This document shows positions 42,645 through 46,743 of a DNA stretch of 46,743 nucleotides, piece after piece. The notes beneath the pieces were generated by a model, which saw only the letters and a list, made by a program, of their open reading frames with translations, did no database searches and had not been told where the DNA came from. A program made the position numbers and the translations under genes. The stretch is taken from positions 1-46,743 of the forward strand of contig CATLTV010000016.1 of assembly GCA_950059285.1 (NCBI GenBank), written 5' to 3'. This stretch comes from an uncultured Pseudomonadota bacterium (GTDB lineage Bacteria > Myxococcota_A > Bradymonadia > Bradymonadales > Bradymonadaceae). Position 1 is the stretch's first letter. Each line of letters begins with the position of its first letter.

Positions 42645-44999
42645 TTAGAATTTTGCTTCAGCACCAGCGATAAACTCACGTGCGCCTGTGATGAAGACGC
42701 CATTGGTGGAGCGCGTTGAGATCACGCGTTGATCGAGCAAGTTTTTCCCAAGCATGTAGAAGGTTGTGTTCCACGGGATGTGTGCGTAGGTGAGTCGCGC
42801 ATCGATGCTTGTTCTTGCTGGGATGGGACCACGAATGCCATTTGCGCTGGGTGTGGTGATGTTCTCGATCTCGGAGAAGCTTTCGCTGGTGTAACGCGCA
42901 GCGAGCATGGCAGCAAACCCGAGTGGATGTTCTGCACCAATTTGTGCGCTGGCGCGGTGTTTTGGCACGTAAGGAACGGAGTTTCCAACCAGAGGAGTTC
43001 GCCACTGATCGCCGAGCGTGGCGTGTGTGTAGGAATAGTTCAACAACACGGGGAAGCGCAGGATCGTACGGAAGTACTGGAATGGGTCGGCTTGAAGGGA
43101 AGTTTCAACACCAAGATGGCGTGTGTTTCCTGCCTCAAAAGCCGCATTGTTCTGTGCTGTCAATGATGTGATAGGGAGCGTCAGGTTTTTTGTTTCAATC
43201 CAGAATCCCGAGACATCAAGAGAGAGCTGATTTTTGTCATAAAGTCGTGAGCCAAGCTCGAAGTTCCACGCGTATTCAGGGACGAGGTTGACTTCATCGT
43301 CAATCAGGGAGCTTGCAAGGCGTTCTTCAGGAATCGCCATGCTTCGGTGAGCGCTGGCAAAGATCGTGACATGCTTGCCAAGATCAAGCGAGGAGCCAAC
43401 ACCAGGAAGCAATGAGGTTGATGTATCACCACCATCACGCGGCGGGTTAAAGTCGACAGGCTCCCCATCAAAGGTATCTCGCCAGACACGTCGTTCCGAT
43501 CGCAAGAACTCAAGGCGAACGCCTGGTTCTACGCGAAGCTTGTCTTTAAGGAAGAAGAAGCGCCCAAGAGAATAGGCGGCAAGTGTGCGGCCTGTGCGTT
43601 CTTCATCAAGCAGAGAGGTGCCTGATGGAGAACCTCCATGTTGACCACGTTGTTGTTCGCGATCGATGTCCTCCTGAGAGCCGCGCAGGCCCATAATAAT
43701 TTCAGAGCGTCCAAGTTTTCCAAGATCAAGGTCGAGTGTCAGCCTGCTCTCGGCGCCAAGTGTGCTGTAGCGCTCGTTGATGATGTCTGTGGAGTCAAGG
43801 AAGTACAGTGAGCCATTGTCCTGGGTAGACGAGGTGTTGCCACCAAGAATAACACGCTCGTAGCCATCCAGAGAGCGCTCCTGTCGGTCAAAGCGCTGTT
43901 GCTGGACGTGTCTACTCATGGTGTTTGCCCAGAGGCTAGTCTGGAGCATTCCTACATCGCCAACCACATATGTGTGTTGGATGCTTGCAGCGAGTCGATC
44001 CAACTCATTGCGATCGTAAGGCGCGACCACGGTGTTGGGGTCTTGCTCATAGATGTTTTGTGTCAGGCCAGTTCTTGATGCGCGTGAGAACTCATCATAA
44101 ATGGAGAGTTTTGCGCCAAACCAGGAGCGTTCCGAGGGCTGAAGTCGAAACTTGGCCGAGAGATCTGTGGCGACGAGATCCAGTGATTGAGGGCCTTCAA
44201 AGCGTCTGTGGTGAGCCTCAAAGAGGTAGCCCACCACCCCCTTGGTATCGCCAATGGATGCACCAATGTTCATGCGGCCAAACGAGCCGCCTTGAAAATA
44301 GCCCGATGTGGTGAACGCGCGTGGAGGCGCGTGTGTAATGAGGTTGATCGCACCACCCATATTTTGTGGTCCGTAGAGGATTGAACTTGACCCTGTAAGT
44401 TGCTCGACTTTCTCGATTTTCTCAACGGGTGTGGTGTAAAGAATTGAGCCGTCGAGGTAGGGCGCAGCCGCGATGGCGATGCCATCTTCAAGCACAAGTG
44501 TGTAGGTGCTTTGTGTGGGGGGGAAGCCGCGCATGCCAAGGTTTAATCGCAGGCCCATGGGGTCGACATTGGCGATTGTGACATTGGGCAGGTACTCCAG
44601 AAGTTCAGCGGTGGAGCGTGGCGCGATGCGGTCGATTTGTTTCTGTGTCAGCGTATGAGCGCTGCCTGCGGTGTCACGACGGTCACGTTCATTGGGGCCA
44701 ATAAGCTCAATGTCGAGTGGAAGCGTTGACCAGATATCGAGGTTCACAAACTCGATCAGGGGTGCTTCTTCTGCGATGAATTCGCCTTCAACCTCGCCTT
44801 CAACGAACGTATCGTCCTCTTCAAACTCTTCTTCAGGTTCGATGGTGTCATCGTCACCTTCGGAGGCCACCTCTGTGGAGGGAGCGCTCTCGGCGGCGTC
44901 CGGGGTGTCTTCTGGTTGTGGCGTATCCTGAGCGAACAGGGGGCTAGATGCGCCAAAGATAAGGATAGAGCAAAGCGAGGCGATATGGCTTCTTTTCAC
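42645..44999 (-). CDS. TonB-dependent outer-membrane receptor
   Basis: 784 residues. GTG start, with GAGG seven bases upstream. A signal peptide ends near PLFAQD, and an acidic extension (~25-80) follows. The plug domain has TAELLEYLPNVTIANVD, LNLGMRGFPP and YGPQNMGGAINLITHAPP. The 22-strand barrel ends in ...GAEAKF with a terminal aromatic. It is closest in style to FecA-like ferric-chelate receptors, but the ligand cannot be told. It is downstream of tonB in one iron-controlled unit. Confidence 0.92.
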   Translation of the reverse strand: MKRSHIASLCSILIFGASSPLFAQDTPQPEDTPDAAESAPSTEVASEGDDDTIEPEEEFEEDDTFVEGEVEGEFIAEEAPLIEFVNLDIWSTLPLDIELIGPNERDRRDTAGSAHTLTQKQIDRIAPRSTAELLEYLPNVTIANVDPMGLRLNLGMRGFPPTQSTYTLVLEDGIAIAAAPYLDGSILYTTPVEKIEKVEQLTGSSSILYGPQNMGGAINLITHAPPRAFTTSGYFQGGSFGRMNIGASIGDTKGVVGYLFEAHHRRFEGPQSLDLVATDLSAKFRLQPSERSWFGAKLSIYDEFSRASRTGLTQNIYEQDPNTVVAPYDRNELDRLAASIQHTYVVGDVGMLQTSLWANTMSRHVQQQRFDRQERSLDGYERVILGGNTSSTQDNGSLYFLDSTDIINERYSTLGAESRLTLDLDLGKLGRSEIIMGLRGSQEDIDREQQRGQHGGSPSGTSLLDEERTGRTLAAYSLGRFFFLKDKLRVEPGVRLEFLRSERRVWRDTFDGEPVDFNPPRDGGDTSTSLLPGVGSSLDLGKHVTIFASAHRSMAIPEERLASSLIDDEVNLVPEYAWNFELGSRLYDKNQLSLDVSGFWIETKNLTLPITSLTAQNNAAFEAGNTRHLGVETSLQADPFQYFRTILRFPVLLNYSYTHATLGDQWRTPLVGNSVPYVPKHRASAQIGAEHPLGFAAMLAARYTSESFSEIENITTPSANGIRGPIPARTSIDARLTYAHIPWNTTFYMLGKNLLDQRVISTRSTNGVFITGAREFIAGAEAKF

Positions 45000-45111
45000 A
45001 ACGAGACCTCAAGCAAGAAGGGGTATGCATCACGATGTGTGAATGTGATGTAGTTAAAATACAACGAGAGGTTGTATCAGGGAGGGCTTGAGGATGGCAA
45101 TAAGAGTTGGG

Positions 45112-45131
45112 CAAGATCTGATCAGATCTTG
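45112..45131. repeat. 20-bp perfect palindrome across the tonB stop codon
   Basis: CAAGATCTGATCAGATCTTG, a perfect palindrome with 10-bp arms, includes the tonB stop codon. As RNA it gives a 7-bp stem with a 6-nt loop. It could be an operator or a site tuning tonB and receptor expression. Confidence 0.5.
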
Positions 45132-45991
45132 TAGCGAATCGGGATGGTGAGGCTTTTGGTGTTCCAGCCAAGTTCCTGAGGAGGGGCAGGGAGTTTTTTC
45201 AGCGAGCGAATCGTCTGAATAGCGCCTTCATCCAGGGCTTTATGTCCCGAGGATTTGCGTACTTTGACGGCAATGATTTCGCCATTTTTATCAAATTTGA
45301 CAAGGAGATACACTGTGCCCTGAAGGCGAGCGCGACGAGCGGCTCTGGGCACGAACTTATTCTTGTCGATGGTGGAGAAGAGGAGGCGTTTGTAGGCACG
45401 CAGAGCTCCCTTACGATCGACATTTCCTGCGGGCGCAGAGGGGATATGTTCGGTGACGGCAGCCGTGTCGGATGTCACGGGCGAATCGTGTGTGGTGCTG
45501 TTTCCCTGAGATGCAATGGAGACGCCCTGAGAGATGCTCTTTGCAGGGGCGATGTTTTCAGCAAGCGCGGCAGGTGAGGTAGGCGCCTCGGGGTTTTGTG
45601 TAGCAGCGGCGATGATTTTGAGTTTTTGAGTCTCTTCTGGCTCCTCGGGCTGAGGAGGTTTTGGCTGCTCTTTTTTGGGGGGCTTGGGGTCCTTTTTGAC
45701 GAGCTTCTTTCTGGGAGGTTTGGGTGCAACAGGAGGCGTTTGTGGCACTTCTTCTTTGGGTTGCGTGGTGCTCGCCAGGGGCTCATCTTCCTGGGCGGGC
45801 TCAACCTCGGTGGGTTGAGGAATGATGACAGGTTCGGGGAGTTTGATCGCGACAGGTCTGGCTGGTTTTACCGAGGCATCTACATAATGTGCAGGAGAGA
45901 GCGTATCCATGCCCCAATTCCCAAGCATGGCCCAGGTCACAAACGAGACCTGAAGCAGCGCTGATATAAGGATGGAGGATGGGAGTTGCAT
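45122..45991 (-). CDS. tonB: TonB family energy transducer
   Basis: 289 residues. The N-terminal membrane anchor is residues 5-27. A long Pro/Lys/Glu-rich periplasmic spacer follows (~45-130, with KPPKKEQPKPP), then the C-terminal TonB domain (~205-289: GTVYLLVKFDKNGEIIAVKV, SSGHKALDEGAIQTI, ending in IPIRYKI). It couples the proton motive force (with ExbB/ExbD, not in this window) to the receptor encoded 122 bp downstream. The ATG has no strong ribosome-binding site. Confidence 0.9.
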   Translation of the reverse strand: MQLPSSILISALLQVSFVTWAMLGNWGMDTLSPAHYVDASVKPARPVAIKLPEPVIIPQPTEVEPAQEDEPLASTTQPKEEVPQTPPVAPKPPRKKLVKKDPKPPKKEQPKPPQPEEPEETQKLKIIAAATQNPEAPTSPAALAENIAPAKSISQGVSIASQGNSTTHDSPVTSDTAAVTEHIPSAPAGNVDRKGALRAYKRLLFSTIDKNKFVPRAARRARLQGTVYLLVKFDKNGEIIAVKVRKSSGHKALDEGAIQTIRSLKKLPAPPQELGWNTKSLTIPIRYKI

Positions 45992-46073
45992 AGTTTATGT
46001 AAGTGTCCATGTCATCAGGGATTCGAGCCAACCGACCTCACTACTCATAGGATCAAGCGTAGCGTGTGTCAAT

Positions 46074-46092
46074 GATAATGAAAACAAGTATC
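46074..46092 (-). promoter_or_regulatory. Fur box upstream of tonB
   Basis: 19 bases matching the classical Fur consensus GATAATGATAATCATTATC at 15 positions, 83 bp before the tonB ATG. It covers the -10 and most of the spacer of the minus-strand promoter, the arrangement expected for iron-dependent repression. Confidence 0.7.
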
Positions 46093-46103
46093 AAAATCGT
46101 CAA
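46075..46103 (-). promoter_or_regulatory. Promoter of the tonB-receptor unit
   Basis: Read on the minus strand: TTGACG (46103-46098), 17 bases, CATTAT (46080-46075). Transcription would start near 46068, giving a leader of about 77 nt. Confidence 0.55.
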
Positions 46104-46222: not shown

Positions 46223-46250
46223 TTGACAGAAAGTGCGGCGGTGTTATTAT
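46223..46250 (+). promoter_or_regulatory. Sigma-70 promoter of the ncRNA candidate
   Basis: Consensus TTGACA at 46223-46228, a 16-base spacer, and TATTAT at 46245-46250 (5 of 6). The expected start of transcription is about 46257. It is the best promoter match in the window. Confidence 0.65.
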
Positions 46251-46441
46251 TTATATCGAAAGAGCTACTCTAATAGGGGTAGCCACCCAGGTTAACACCA
46301 TCTGGGTGCGGGGAGCTTGCTGGGTGGGCCAGCAGGTGACTCACATGGGAGTAGGGTTGTGCGCGGCACGCTTCAATACATCCCACTGCAGGCTTGGGAG
46401 CTTGCAACGAAAAGAATTTGCCGACCAAAGGAGGTGATCTG

Positions 46442-46486
46442 GTGATAGACAGTATTAAAACGGCCGGTGAGGTGGTGCCATCCTGA
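46442..46486 (+). CDS. Possible 14-codon leader peptide within the ncRNA
   Basis: A GTG start seven bases after GGAGG in AAAGGAGGTGATC (46427-46439), which is perfectly complementary to the conserved 3' end of 16S rRNA. The peptide would be VIDSIKTAGEVVPS. If translated it could act as a leader or sensor. The same 13 bases might instead bind 16S rRNA for another purpose. GGAGG could also pair with CCTCC at 46627-46631, hiding the site. Confidence 0.3.
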   Translation: MIDSIKTAGEVVPS

Positions 46487-46658
46487 ACAGGCCAGTATTG
46501 GCGTTGTGGTCATATGTTGCTCGGGGCAACATTGCATATGACCTGTTAAGCGATACTGCTTCGCGTCAGGAAATCCCAGACACTACCGGCTCCTTGTGGT
46601 TCTTACCTGGTCGAGTAAGACAAAGTCCTCCGAGCGATCATAGGGAGTAAAAACTTTT

Positions 46659-46708
46659 AAAGAAGAAGGGCGATATTGTGGTGAACCACAATGTCGCCCT
46701 TCTTCTTT
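46659..46708 (+). terminator. Terminator of the ncRNA candidate
   Basis: A 23-bp stem (46659-46681 with 46686-46708) with one T/G wobble and a 4-nt TGAA loop. The run TTCTTCTTTTTTC follows, giving a U-tract. It has the same long-arm style as the other hairpins in the window. Confidence 0.8.
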
Positions 46709-46743
46709 TTTCTACCTCGTAAAGCAAAGCGTCCACGGGGCGA

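Follow-up and report, generated by a model that had tools for sequence, protein, structure and literature searches.

A structured RNA with a conserved mini-ORF in Myxococcota, probably related to the actinobacterial Ms_IGR-5

The locus and its transcription unit

Close to the end of the window, i.e., the whole 46,743-nt stretch of DNA analyzed here, lies a stand-alone transcription unit, the features of which are collected in Table 1. Its promoter, TTGACA-16 nt-TATTAT, retains 11 of the 12 consensus letters and carries TG ahead of the -10 hexamer; in nine of 11 relatives TATAGT or TATACT is found at the position corresponding to the latter. The unit is closed by a terminator with a stem of at least 20 pairs followed by a T-run, and the contig ends 30 nt further on. 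With these signals placed around a predicted transcript of about 455 nt, the initial annotation was right in describing the unit as complete and its product as a large structured RNA. The numerous helices noted there were also borne out, and the RNA folds strongly: the region 46250-46715 folds at -192 kcal/mol (z -7.5) and the region 46256-46652, i.e., without the terminator, at -150 kcal/mol (z -3.1), and in both cases none of 100 dinucleotide shuffles was as stable. No ORF of at least 60 aa was found inside the unit on either strand, in agreement with the earlier statement that long ORFs are absent. The RNA had been called unrecognised, and it stays so in Rfam, since the scan of the window gave no match at the gathering threshold, and those admitted at E ≤ 10 were irrelevant. 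The best Rfam matches in the window (Plastid-psbA-2, MIR6288, and rliH) were rejected as sub-cut-off chance matches to the terminator stem.

Two observations concern the end of the contig. The long-stem terminator (46660-46708) is nearly self-complementary and shows 83% identity over 52 bases with a copy on contig G000:C174, so it is possibly a dispersed bidirectional terminator element. The final 23 bases (46721-46743) have an inverted copy near the start of contig C299, which makes them a short repeat at contig ends.

The upstream neighbor of the RNA in the window is a divergent tonB-like gene, which together with a TonB-dependent receptor gene occupies 42645-46095 of the minus strand, and near 46073 lies ATGATAATGAAAAC, which is similar to a Fur box. 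The suggestion that the position of the RNA next to a Fur-controlled promoter may be fortuitous was borne out, as the neighboring genes vary from genus to genus. At loci L005, L007, L009, L010, L048, L054, L055, and L056 the RNA is adjoined by a gene for a lipoprotein of about 330-350 aa, which has an N-terminal motif around CDxRAxQEG; this gene was considered as a conserved neighbor and rejected, as it is confined to close relatives, is absent from other genera and does not adjoin the RNA in the window.

Table 1. Features of the RNA locus, in coordinates of the window.
Feature	Coordinates	Strand	Basis and remarks
Sigma-70-type promoter	46223..46250	+	start of transcription expected at ~46256; TG before -10
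Predicted transcript, ~455 nt	46256..46713	+	promoter, terminator, fold
5' domain, five hairpins	46264..46418	+	predicted fold; absent in the actinobacterial form
Extended Shine-Dalgarno element AAAGGAGGTGATC	46427..46439	+	13 nt, exact complement of 16S rRNA 3' tail
Mini-ORF GTG ATA GAC AGT ATT AAA ACG GCC GGT GAG GTG GTG CCA TCC TGA	46442..46486	+	14 codons, MIDSIKTAGEVVPS; start/frame/stop conserved in relatives
PK2 5' strand CGGCCGG (ORF codons 7-9 in the window; 6-9 across the set)	46461..46467	+	covariation
P_b 5' strand GGTGGTG (ORF codons 10-12)	46471..46477	+	covariation
Stop-codon helix, 5' strand TCCTGA (TCTAG in relatives)	46481..46486	+	sequence
Long hairpin GGTCATATG...CATATGACC, bearing the PK1 loop	46508..46543	+	fold; covarying stem in relatives
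PK1 loop strand GCTCGGGG, pattern GCTC(G)GGG	46519..46526	+	alignment of 11 relatives
Stop-codon helix, 3' strand TCAGGA	46566..46571	+	sequence
P_b 3' strand CACTACC	46581..46587	+	covariation; CNCCACC in general, just ahead of the 3' hairpin
3' hairpin, counterpart of the terminator hairpin of relatives	46590..46647	+	7/10 pairs changed on both sides
PK2 3' strand CTGGTCG, apical loop of the 3' hairpin	46607..46613	+	covariation
PK1 3' strand CCTCcGAGC, on the 3' side of the 3' hairpin	46627..46635	+	alignment of 11 relatives
Extra long-stem intrinsic terminator	46660..46713	+	absent from relatives; similar copy on G000:C174

Relatives and distribution

When 58 related genomes were searched with BLASTN, nine others belonging to the window's family proved to carry the core of the RNA (window 46419-46486), and a copy (L021) is present in a cultured relative, Lujinxingia vulgaris TMQ2; outside the core, sequence identity was weak overall, and the 5' domain aligned poorly among relatives (53% identity). 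A sequence profile of the core (R1), applied to the family, then to the class and then to the phylum, gave one copy in 18 of the 21 family genomes (two fragmented genomes being excluded and the window's own genome included), so the homologues in Bradymonadales that the initial annotation had proposed to look for do exist, and it also matched other families of the class and of the phylum. A broader profile built of 50 sequences (R3) matched 83 of 373 Myxococcota genomes, distributed over 60 of 228 genera, with a single copy per genome except for G314, which has two (G314:C135 and G314:C70). The R3-negative genomes may reflect divergence or true loss. Such a distribution, together with the kinship to an actinobacterial RNA presented below, contradicts the former view of the RNA as a lineage-specific one. 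The weak identity outside the core might suggest that unrelated intergenic sequences, Shine-Dalgarno-like and rich in hairpins, were gathered by chance, but the profile matches (E from 1e-12 to 1e-26), their almost invariable occurrence once per genome and the covariation described in the next section already refute this explanation, and its probability is negligible.

Fold and covariation

Covariation was analyzed in a MAFFT alignment of 11 close relatives, which was not fitted to any structure. In this alignment, 93.6% of the pairs in the 58-pair model are standard, and the value collapses to about 38-47% when the partners are slid by 1-3 columns. Covarying base pairs, named in the initial annotation as a further check, were found in abundance: 30 pairs were changed on both sides, compared with 11.6 ± 2.2 in shuffles (0 of 500). 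RNAalifold alone proposed 55 pairs, 29 of them with double changes.

Two long-range elements, P_b and PK2, both with one strand inside a mini-ORF, recur throughout the phylum. Besides the form present in the window, P_b occurs as GGTGGCG/CGCCACC, GGTGACG/CGTCACC, GGTGGTC/GACCACC, GGTGTTA/TAACACC and others, and its position 6 is occupied by TA in 31 and by CG in 29 members of the set of 67 sequences. PK2 is found elsewhere as CTACGGCG/CGCCGTAG, GACGGTGA/TCACCGTC, CCCGACTG/CAGTCGGG, TGACCAG/CTGGTCA, and ACGTGCAT/ATGCACGT, its core positions being paired in 65 of the 67 sequences with exchanges CG/TA/GC and GC/AT/GU/CG. In that larger set the partners of both helices were selected by their ability to pair, which was not the case in the 11-sequence test. 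As the changes that PK2 shows among the 11 close relatives are all one-sided, the evidence for its covariation comes from the wider set, and a swap test served as the guard against a register chosen for pairing: a sequence's own partner scored better than a partner swapped from other species (18.9 vs 12.3; 64 of 67). In the window, PK2 comprises 7 bp with at least one G-U pair (shuffle p 0.04) and is weaker than in relatives.

The remaining elements are more local or more restricted. In the stop-codon helix of relatives TGA/TCA is replaced by TAG/CTA, i.e., both strands change, and PK1 is seen in the longer forms of the RNA. The 3' hairpin of the window lacks a T-run, and the additional terminator follows it. 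A helix closing the loop with the Shine-Dalgarno element (TGCCG with CGGC) was also tried and rejected, as it competes with PK2 and is lost in several members, e.g., L033-L035.

Shine-Dalgarno element and mini-ORF

The two pseudoknots and the mini-ORF, which runs from GTG at 46442 to TGA at 46486 behind AAAGGAGGTGATC, had been missed in the initial annotation, and its designation of the locus as an ncRNA therefore holds as far as a structured RNA is meant, but not in the sense of a plainly non-coding one. The 16S tail pattern was not found in the window's own genome, the assembly of which is probably devoid of an rRNA operon, and the 16S tail was consequently taken from relatives. The complementarity of 13 nt seen in the window extends to as much as 18 nt in relatives, and 28 of 68 members have 13-18 nt. 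In close relatives the Shine-Dalgarno element is a 15-nt exact complement of the 16S tail. G005, a complete genome of 5.8 Mb, contains the 15-mer TGGATCACCTCCTTT at two places only, namely one 16S 3' end and the strand antisense to the RNA. The element is present in every copy inspected, although in three of them (L076, L091, and L124) in a weaker variant with GGGGG for GGAGG.

Among 67 non-redundant copies, the start codon is GTG in 51, TTG in 13 and ATG in three; it is located 5-11 nt (mostly 7 nt) from the Shine-Dalgarno element and opens an ORF of 12-24 codons. In 56 of the 67 copies a stop codon (TAG 33, TGA 19, TAA 4) stands exactly five codons past a conserved GAG; TGG would be expected at this place in about one fifth of the cases if the second and third letters were independent, and it was observed in none of these 56 copies, which are not independent of one another. 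The distance from the start to GAG varies in multiples of three. Start, frame and stop are thus conserved with two exceptions, L037 and L038, which represent one genus; L039 and L040 are apparent frame exceptions only, produced by the motif pattern used. Both L037 and L038 keep a covarying P_b (GGTCGCG/CGCGACC, GGTCGTA/TACGACC), though the GAGGT motif is out of frame there; as judged from these sequences, the RNA constraint outlives the peptide in this genus.

It is possible to read such an ORF as a tiny mRNA within a dual-function RNA, in which a 14-residue peptide (...[ST]-x-T-[AV]-x-E-V-x-x-[SFL]) would be the product and the folds would regulate its translation. The conserved start, frame and stop, as well as the C-terminal E-V-x-x-x-stop common to the Nocardia peptide MDSSRTREVAVR and the RF02471 consensus (...TCEVAAR), both discussed below, agree with this reading. 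Nevertheless, when codon positions 1, 2 and 3 were compared over 39 ORFs equal in length, their mean variability amounted to 0.415, 0.332 and 0.345, i.e., the positions are about equally variable, with no third-position excess that would indicate amino-acid selection on the peptide. Moreover, there is free variation at codons 2-5, conservation is confined to the codons that take part in PK2, P_b or the GUGA linker between the two helices, and the motif is lost in two members. We therefore regard a functional peptide as unlikely. Given the lack of third-position excess, it is the start, frame and stop that are conserved rather than an ordinary peptide, and it looks as if the act of translation, not the peptide, were maintained.

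Kinship with Ms_IGR-5

The relationship with the actinobacterial Ms_IGR-5 RNA (RF02471) emerged from searches in both directions. In cmscan with a relaxed threshold, RF02471 was matched over its full length by eight of 20 homologues from the phylum at E ≤ 1 (best 35.7 bits), and a genome search with RF02471 only yielded eight matches at E ≤ 0.001, six of them at R1 sites, so that RF02471 and our own profile match the same Myxococcota sites. The 45-bit cut-off of RF02471 was reached by no Myxococcota match (best relative 37.9 bits) and the window gave no match to this model at E ≤ 10; because it fails the cut-off, the window is not filed under RF02471.

The combination of Shine-Dalgarno element, mini-ORF, P_b and PK2 was found in turn in an actinobacterial copy, L109 of Nocardia farcinica (one genome only), which reads AAGGAGG-11 nt-ATG GAT AGT TCT AGG ACA CGT GAG GTG GCT GTC CGC TAG. 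The 12-codon ORF ends with E-V-A-V-R-stop, P_b is formed by GGTGGCT/AGTCACC and PK2 by GGACA/TGTCC, and the upstream gene ends just ahead of the Shine-Dalgarno element. The consensus line of RF02471 in Rfam contains TTG ATT GAT TTA TGG ACA TGT GAG GTG GCT GCC CGC TAG. The structure printed in that entry includes neither P_b nor PK2, and the entry may deserve revision. Taken together, the sequence comparisons make common descent of the Myxococcota RNA and Ms_IGR-5 probable. The two differ in that the Myxococcota forms add a 5' domain of about 150 nt, while the window's group additionally has the long hairpin with PK1.

Transcripts of Ms_IGR-5 have been detected in S. lividans (PMC8079986) and S. 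avermitilis (PMC8780764), and in M. smegmatis it overlaps ncMSMEG15794c (PMC10454040). In M. abscessus and M. smegmatis its homologues show ribosome footprints, with the warning of the authors that many other non-coding RNAs were also footprinted (PMC4974804). The literature on Ms_IGR-5 that we found describes neither an ORF nor a function. The Ms_IGR-5 pattern was absent from viral contigs, and in phages only a 21-nt chance match was obtained.

If the kinship holds, an orphan actinobacterial sRNA gains a large and far more divergent branch in another phylum, and the comparison reveals that its Rfam entry lacks two long-range helices as well as a mini-ORF with its ribosome-binding site. Laboratory mycobacteria and Streptomyces would thereby allow a direct test of what Ms_IGR-5-like RNAs do.

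A putative ribosome-docked RNA switch

Counted from the first base of the start codon, PK2 begins after 13-22 nt in most copies (median 16; 12-22 in 63 of 67). Toeprinting places the leading edge of an initiating ribosome about 15-17 nt from the start codon. Accordingly, an initiation complex docked there would abut the intact pseudoknot, which elongation would have to open. The stretch from codon 2 to PK2 has 65% A+T, compared with 35% in the 200 nt past the stop.

Together with the transcription signals, the covarying fold, the conserved start, frame and stop, the stand-alone setting and the footprints on Ms_IGR-5 homologues, this geometry leads us to favor, with a little less than even confidence, a trans-acting, ribosome-docked RNA switch that is opened by translation of the mini-ORF. 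The out-of-frame motif of L037 and L038, the GGGGG variants and the weaker PK2 of the window speak against it. The Shine-Dalgarno element and the start codon would be displayed in an A+T-rich, largely unpaired stretch, and the 30S subunit would dock there via a very long Shine-Dalgarno duplex. As PK2 and P_b would begin right where the docked ribosome has its leading edge, docking would be compatible with the closed fold, and only translation of the 12-24-codon ORF to its stop would melt both helices and give the open form. The output may be an action of the freed 3' strands on other RNAs or on proteins, or else the docked ribosome itself. A bolder generalization, which we put forward rather tentatively and from sequence comparison, is that these RNAs constitute a class of RNA switches across Myxococcota and Actinomycetota with the ribosome as ligand, in which the mini-ORF is kept solely to let initiation, transit and termination unlock the terminator-loop pseudoknot. 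If true, such a switch would be uncommon among regulatory RNAs.

The length of the Shine-Dalgarno duplex, the uniqueness of this complementarity, 16S rRNA apart, in the complete genome and the location of PK2 at the entry edge of the ribosome would also suit a 30S decoy, i.e., an abundant RNA that sequesters initiating ribosomes under stress or in the stationary phase, with PK2 acting as a roadblock. An in-frame stop at a fixed place, with three stop codons in rotation, would however be superfluous for a decoy, and the gene is single-copy; we consider this explanation improbable, somewhat more so than a functional peptide.

Regulation in cis was weighed as well. A short ORF and, behind it, a terminator-like hairpin pairing with the ORF recall a leader-peptide attenuator of the next gene, and at some loci that gene is indeed co-directional (EamA-like, L042 and L047). 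Nonetheless, the downstream gene is convergent in at least nine of 16 loci (gene calls being mechanical ORFs) and differs between genera, which argues against a cis-acting leader; a conserved co-directional downstream gene was not found among these loci, and the ORF contains no codon run for one amino acid. An attenuator is thus very improbable, and the ribosome-docked switch acting in trans remains the reading that we prefer.

Comparison with other known systems

The window matches none of the Rfam models of RNase P, SRP and 6S RNA, which, together with the lack of a tmRNA (RF00023) match, is in line with the initial annotation, where all four had been set aside. The likeness to 6S RNA and Ms1 consists in the large, structured character of the RNA, Ms1 being moreover actinobacterial; 6S RNA differs in giving no Rfam match in the window, and Ms1 and IGR-5 are listed as separate sRNAs in one paper (PMC10454040).

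As a pseudoknotted RNA of about 400 nt with a short internal reading frame, tmRNA is similar in outline. In contrast to it, the RNA described here has its own Shine-Dalgarno element and start codon and no tRNA-like ends, and the genome encodes a separate, canonical tmRNA at G000:C9.

Dual-function sRNAs include SgrS and RNAIII of S. aureus. SR1 of B. subtilis is likewise described as a dual-function sRNA (PMC8501984). To these three molecules we liken the RNA in part, without claiming homology: each is a stand-alone, terminator-ended structured RNA with a small ORF, whereas in the RNA presented here the ORF, of only 12-24 codons and showing no ordinary coding selection, is itself a strand of the pseudoknot.
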